Shown here: piece after piece, positions 15,466 through 15,663 of the stretch
How the letters are laid out: every line of letters starts with the position of its first letter
Numbering within the stretch: the first letter of the stretch is position 1
Origin: a virus
IMG/VR virus record: IMGVR_UViG_3300037847_004266
Span: 1 to 27,654 of that record
Length of the DNA: 27,654 nt
Strand: one strand, 5' to 3'
The notes under the pieces: generated by a model
Told to the model about the DNA's origin: nothing
The model's input: the letters and a program-made list of their open reading frames with translations, nothing else
The model's database searches: none
Program-made: the position numbers and the translations under genes

Positions 15466-15663
15466 GAGTCTCTGTCCCGTGAAGAAGCCATAATTGCCCT
15501 GTTCCCAGGACAATTAAAAAATGGCTATACAGAAAAATCTTGTCTTATCTGTCCCTTGCTCATCGCCTCTATGTCTAAGTTAGTCGCTAGTTACGACGGA
15601 GTCGGTTGGCGATCCCTCCTTAACTTAGTATTGCGTCTTTCGACCCAACGGCACCTTTTATAA
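15466..15663. ncRNA. Gene-free region with junction and pseudoknot potential
   Basis: No credible gene. Pairings seen: (a) 15486-15491 with 15521-15526, continuing as 15492-15496 with 15511-15515 and 15498-15500 with 15507-15509. (b) An 8-pair stem, 15575-15582 with 15621-15628, closing two helices: 15583-15586 with 15594-15597 and 15598-15601 with 15616-15619, forming a three-way junction. (c) A 6-pair ATCGCC/GGCGAT contact from 15562-15567 to the loop at 15608-15613, making a pseudoknot. On the minus strand 15638-15641 is a GAAA tetraloop in a short hairpin. The strand is undecided: minus has the GNRA loop, while plus leads to the terminator-like hairpin at 15735. Expected of a structured RNA, not of spacer DNA. 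Confidence 0.5.

Follow-up and report, generated by a model that had tools for sequence, protein, structure and literature searches.

Comparative analysis of the window (the whole 27,654-nt stretch of viral DNA under study) indicates that its minus strand encodes a structured RNA extending from about 15957 to 15475, and possibly to 15361, with a core running from about 15892 to 15475 (Table 1). This RNA is ~460-600 nt long, is not made into a protein and adjoins a baseplate gene in very large T4-like phages. It is a new RNA family within the large phage non-coding RNAs such as GOLLD and ROOL, and jumbo-phage biology thereby gains a widespread, well-supported large RNA family; we know of no function for such large RNAs in jumbo phages. 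The joint explanation that we favor, at a probability of about 0.45, is a large minus-strand non-coding RNA whose CTAATA tail would bind the phage SSB gp32, thereby sensing or competing for free gp32. An earlier note on this DNA had placed the structured region at 15466-15663, an interval that corresponds to the 3′ half only, as the element reaches upstream to about 15957.

Table 1. Coordinates of the RNA element, its parts and the neighboring genes in the window.
Feature	Position	Strand	Basis
gp26-like baseplate hub gene	16181..17053	-	PF12322 / phrog_150
73-aa gene (p73), directly 5′ of the RNA	15954..16175	-	no family recognised
5′ direct-repeat array, putative gp32 (SSB) binding repeats	15903..15957	-	repeat counts
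5′ folded domain: CATAGTGG ... GTGG/CCAC closing helix, covarying hairpins	15729..15892	-	alignment A4, model R2
Middle hairpins joining both domains, covarying	15660..15728	-	alignments A1/A2
3′ core: GNAA hairpin, 8-pair stem and two inner hairpins	15575..15655	-	model R1
Pseudoknot: GUUGR (15649-15645) with loop YCAAC (15609-15605)	15605..15649	-	covariation
3′ part: ACAGA/UCUGU helix and AAUUGUCCUGG/CAGGGCAAUU hairpin	15475..15560	-	alignments
Sigma70-type promoter TTGACA-17-TATAAT, between RNA and resolvase	15432..15460	-	perfect sequence match
3′ element: hairpin and palindrome AGGTCTTTAGACCT (15378-15365), then TTTT; terminator-like	15361..15425	-	conserved stem
PDDEXK nuclease / Holliday-junction resolvase, downstream	14814..15344	-	PF24608, phrog_244

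The window belongs to a T4-like phage and contains genes coding for a late sigma factor, a gp46/47-like nuclease, a portal protein and a major head protein. A short-chain-dehydrogenase-like gene (10613-11209, plus strand) lies between the gp47- and gp46-like recombination nuclease genes, as it also does in several relatives. Relatives of the resolvase in IMG/VR retain the entire gap, down to ~65% identity. Two conserved motifs of the RNA were searched separately in IMG/VR and gave matches on the same contigs, 183-213 nt apart and on one strand. At least 102 loci carry both motifs (some of them overlapping on one contig), and they provided at least 46 distinct full sequences, at least 27 of which share less than 92% identity with one another; all members of the family are metagenomic. 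In 27 of 27 representatives, the gene immediately 5′ of the RNA is the gp26-like one, together with the 73-aa gene where this is recognised. The RNA is present as a single copy, including in two 342-kb contigs. Covariance models of the 3′ core (R1) and of the 5′ domain (R2), which match the window with 116 and 159 bits, respectively, recovered further members left out of model building (E = 1e-22 to 1e-33).

Scanning the window and 10 related or syntenic loci against Rfam with cmscan gave no match at the gathering threshold, and a permissive scan of 15340-16000 gave one sub-threshold chance match only. Likewise, none of the candidates named for checking in the earlier note (manA, wcaG, GOLLD and tmRNA) matched the RNA, ARAGORN having been used besides the Rfam models. 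A direct search for DNA similarity to sequenced phages returned chance matches only, a single match in genome_contigs was dismissed as chance since it had no other feature of the RNA, and no description of this RNA was found in the open-licence literature. The earlier suggestion of a structured non-coding RNA or long phage RNA is thus borne out by the covariation described below and by the conserved position, and that of an unrecognised family by the Rfam result. The 342-kb relative G001 contains an Alphaproteobacteria-type permuted tmRNA, a manA RNA (L384 1167-1489 and 4861-5059) and several tRNAs, a set whose composition suggests an alphaproteobacterial host.

The plus-strand reading was rejected because of its weaker fold. 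Over 15466-15663 the minus strand folded with z = -3.4, a value equaled in 0 of 200 shuffles, compared to z = -1.6 (13/200) for the plus strand, and the complete 609-nt intergenic gap gave z = -3.7 and -3.0, respectively (20 shuffles each). In the family alignment, the folding energy was -77.3 kcal/mol on the minus strand vs -44.9 on the plus strand, and the same helices were 98% vs 87% paired. The interval had been called gene-free, which holds insofar as it contains no conserved gene; a mechanical 69-aa ORF is nevertheless present on the plus strand (15454-15663) and is disrupted among homologues by 1-nt and 8-9-nt indels.

RNAalifold applied to 15 sequences predicted 97 pairs, 30 of them with two-sided compensatory changes. 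The 5′ folded domain, which holds the near-invariant CTTCTCGTWAACCAC and CTCTAAAGG, comprises 27 pairs, 11 with two-sided changes, and the middle hairpins covary as well (e.g. A1 column pairs 286-307 and 309-349). The 3′ core carries the conserved motifs GCCGUUGR and GRAUCGYCAACCGAC; together with the pseudoknot it is 97.9% paired over 27 sequences, and two-sided changes affect 12 of its 28 pairs (77 such cells). Its covariation values were reached by 0 of 500 shuffles and slid controls gave 0-1, although for one measure, the count of additional pair types, the shuffles were not surpassed. These results refute a chance structure or the remnant of a protein gene, for which the 69-aa ORF could be invoked and whose probability we consider negligible. 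Kinship among the sequences inflates covariation counts; the covariation is independently supported because the switches recur across clades and in held-out members. The 3′ part diverges in the most distant clade.

Covarying pairs in an alignment of homologues, whose absence would have refuted the earlier note, were found, and its description of the fold is partly confirmed. The 8-pair stem (15575-15582/15621-15628) with two adjacent hairpins inside it is present and conserved with compensatory changes. The tetraloop hairpin read on the minus strand corresponds to the conserved GNAA hairpin at 15644-15635, whose stem covaries, while the long hairpin at ~15486-15526 is kept in part of the family and replaced elsewhere by a similar hairpin. 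The pseudoknot postulated between ATCGCC and GGCGAT did not stand, being 61.5% paired over the family and devoid of covariation. The loop that it was thought to enter is instead occupied by the conserved GUUGR/YCAAC pseudoknot, which is 100% paired, R:Y being without exception either G-C (14 of 26 distinct sequences) or A-U (12 of 26), and which is also found in held-out members. In R1 there is competition between this pseudoknot and the four outermost pairs of the GNAA hairpin; therefore, one of the two may represent an alternative state.

The 5′ end of the RNA consists of a direct-repeat array. Every member contains three to seven CTAA(T/C)A repeats on the RNA strand within the 170 nt before the core, compared to zero or one on the other strand, the last repeat being located 13-16 nt before the core in most members and 24-26 nt in a few. 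Held-out members also carry the CTAATA array. In the window, CTAATA starts at 15957, 15950, 15941 and 15908 on the minus strand, and the array overlaps the stop codon of the 73-aa gene. A tight triple CTAATA array occurs at two places only in the 342-kb and 187-kb relatives, namely the 5′ side of the RNA and the leader of an SSB gene that is gp32-like by PF08804; the reversed control pattern occurs at none. Three to four repeats run into the Shine-Dalgarno sequence in 44 of the 44 distinct gp32 leaders fetched, and a contig coding for a gp26-like protein 100% identical to that of the window has the same kind of gp32 leader. In these leaders (L271 1537-1584; L273-L352), the repeats reach the Shine-Dalgarno sequence behind a hairpin-like element. 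The CTAATA-repeat leaders are likely the autoregulatory operator of the SSB, and position and conservation suggest that gp32 of this lineage recognises CTAATA. The gp32 proteins of T4 and RB69 repress translation of their own mRNA through a leader pseudoknot and UUAAA/UAAA repeats at the same position, to which they bind (PMC535899).

The RNA therefore has the same repeats as the gp32 leader of its own lineage, as is required of a gp32-type SSB operator. No Shine-Dalgarno sequence or start codon was found within or after its array, which is followed by the fold and by no conserved ORF; this, too, speaks against the gp32 reading. With looser spacing, a third CTAATA cluster appears at 117503-117538 of the 342-kb contig, which counts against the involvement of gp32. 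The more distant 342-kb contig has the triple pattern nowhere but at the RNA, its gp32 leader carrying two copies. Of the remaining double CTAATA sites, most of those inspected fall inside ORFs, and in the 342-kb contig with the third cluster double sites are not much more frequent than their controls.

Under the reading that we favor, the minus strand would be transcribed into the RNA either within a gp26-p73 transcript, of which it would form the 3′ part, or from a start of its own; as the covariation shows, its body folds into two domains with the pseudoknot. By analogy with T4, whose gp32 recognises repeated unstructured elements of its leader, gp32 would bind cooperatively to the CTAATA tail; gp32 is the presumed binder because its own leader shares the repeats and because of the T4 precedent. 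The likeliest consequence would be sensing of free gp32 by the RNA, or competition for it, the RNA acting either as a decoy or anti-repressor, or as an RNA whose activity is switched by the supply of SSB. A broader version, in which a large phage RNA reads out or buffers SSB supply through a tail mimicking the gp32 operator, so that the activity of its folded body is tied to the SSB level, seems to us possible, if rather doubtful. We know of no SSB with such an RNA-based regulatory layer. A concrete and testable partner, the phage SSB, is thereby proposed for an RNA from sequence alone.

A serious rival, although we regard it as unlikely, is a free-standing RNA-only assembly (nanocage or scaffold) like those of GOLLD and ROOL, in which the CTAATA tail would be incidental or a processing or loading site. 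The size of the RNA, its phage origin, its elaborate conserved fold, the pseudoknot and the GNAA tetraloop all fit such an assembly, for which GOLLD and ROOL provide the precedent (PMC12286853), and the two readings are compatible in that an assembly could also be bound at its tail. However, no Rfam model of GOLLD or ROOL matched, the window contains no tRNA gene (those of the 342-kb relative are far from the RNA), oligomer contacts are invisible in sequence, and the repeats shared with gp32 are left unexplained.

Both genes flanking the RNA are on the minus strand, the upstream gene being constant while the downstream gene varies between clades. The RNA begins at the stop codon of p73, shares its strand and invariably follows the gp26-like gene; no terminator-like site was found ahead of it on that strand except for a hairpin inside the RNA. 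Such an arrangement would suit a gp26-p73 transcript whose structured 3′ UTR serves to protect or process the late mRNA and has no role in trans. Yet the RNA is much larger and more conserved than a stabilising UTR requires and its single-stranded motifs are invariant across distant clades, making a mere UTR quite unlikely. On the downstream side, the RNA ends just upstream of the resolvase gene in clades A and B, with a hairpin and a T-run, as would be expected of a riboswitch or leader controlling this gene. The resolvase adjoins the RNA only in part of the family, however: most members of the third clade have the RNA, but no resolvase was found downstream of it. In clade A a promoter-like site separates the two. 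The earlier label "riboswitch-like" is thus not retained: the downstream gene changes while the RNA stays, no fixed association with a regulated downstream gene such as a riboswitch or cis leader needs was found, and we consider control of the resolvase very improbable.

The promoter signal reported earlier is a real sequence match, but it is conserved in the nearest relatives only, having been found in the four clade-A representatives and not in other clades. It is one of two perfect 12/12 sigma70-type promoters located within 2.5 kb on the minus strand (17126-17098 and 15460-15432). Since it precedes the 3′ element in the window and in the nearest relatives, a second short RNA or a leader of the resolvase gene may start there. 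Of the 46 distinct sequences, 45 retain the stem of the AGGTCTTTAGACCT palindrome, the loop being altered in 3 of these; the 342-kb relative contains the palindrome a single time.

T4 origins use transcripts. A replication-origin element, with the transcript forming an R-loop or primer and SSB coating the displaced strand at the CTAATA repeats, would be in line with an array on the non-template strand, the link to gp32, the AT-rich flank and the single copy. We nonetheless find it improbable, since the cumulative GC skew of the 342-kb relative has no inflection at the site beyond the local change of gene strand, and since an R-loop does not require the RNA to fold, whereas compensatory changes reveal selection for folding.

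The cultured jumbo phages GAP32, CBB, BF, 121Q, SE_PL, Phosso and PA5oct all have a gap of some 750-1500 nt, with poor annotation or none, where the RNA would be expected, flanked by the gp26-like gene and the gene for EndoVII or the resolvase. No homologue of the RNA was found with R1 and R2 in PA5oct, Phosso, Atu_ph07, SCTP-2, Vibrio 2.275.O, CBB, GAP32 or XacN1, the one match obtained (16 bits) being attributable to chance. Phages of the GAP32/121Q type have a conserved unannotated sequence of 700-800 nt between the gp26-like operon and EndoVII, without Rfam match, which is also found in L212 (CBB), L264 (BF) and L268 (121Q). It shows compensatory changes, their compatible strand being left unassigned, and is partly repeated at 4-5 places per genome on one strand; GAP32 has partial copies at four further places. 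The coordinates concerned in GAP32 are L213 5565-6368 and NC_019401.1 177405-178185, 340742-341187, 261519-262104, 35298-35671 and 98805-99151. TGTACTG repeats near the GAP32 gap were rejected as a gp32 operator because they are absent from the GAP32 gp32 leader. The structured gaps of GAP32-type phages have no visible repeat sharing with gp32 leaders, which counts against the involvement of gp32. PA5oct has at the same position a 1.5-kb gap with tiny predicted ORFs only, and partial copies at two other places (L207 6060-7570; NC_071039.1 75678-76838, 12900-13143 and 246155-246276). In Sinorhizobium phage Phosso, ~1 kb preceding the resolvase gene, again at the same position, has no gene annotation (L208 6760-7773). 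The slot between the gp26-like gene and the resolvase or EndoVII gene holds an unannotated, conserved non-coding stretch in several cultured, experiment-ready jumbo phages.

Among known systems, GOLLD and ROOL resemble the present RNA in being large, phage-encoded and endowed with an elaborate covarying structure that includes a pseudoknot. It differs from them by the lack of a match to their Rfam models and of adjacent tRNAs, by its position next to a baseplate gene and by an array common to the gp32 leader. With the gp32 operator of T4 and RB69 it shares short repeated A/U-rich elements, and the CTAATA repeats of this lineage enter the gp32 Shine-Dalgarno sequence as the UUAAA repeats do in T4. 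In the RNA, however, what follows the repeats is a large non-coding fold and not a start codon. Their order relative to the structure, repeats then structure as opposed to structure then repeats in the T4 leader, counts against binding by gp32. CsrB/CsrC-type RNAs titrate a protein through repeated sites exposed in hairpin loops. Whereas the repeats described here lie in an apparently unstructured tail, with an SSB as the candidate protein and titration as a hypothetical outcome, both systems have repeated putative protein sites that are common to the RNA and to the leader of the regulated mRNA.
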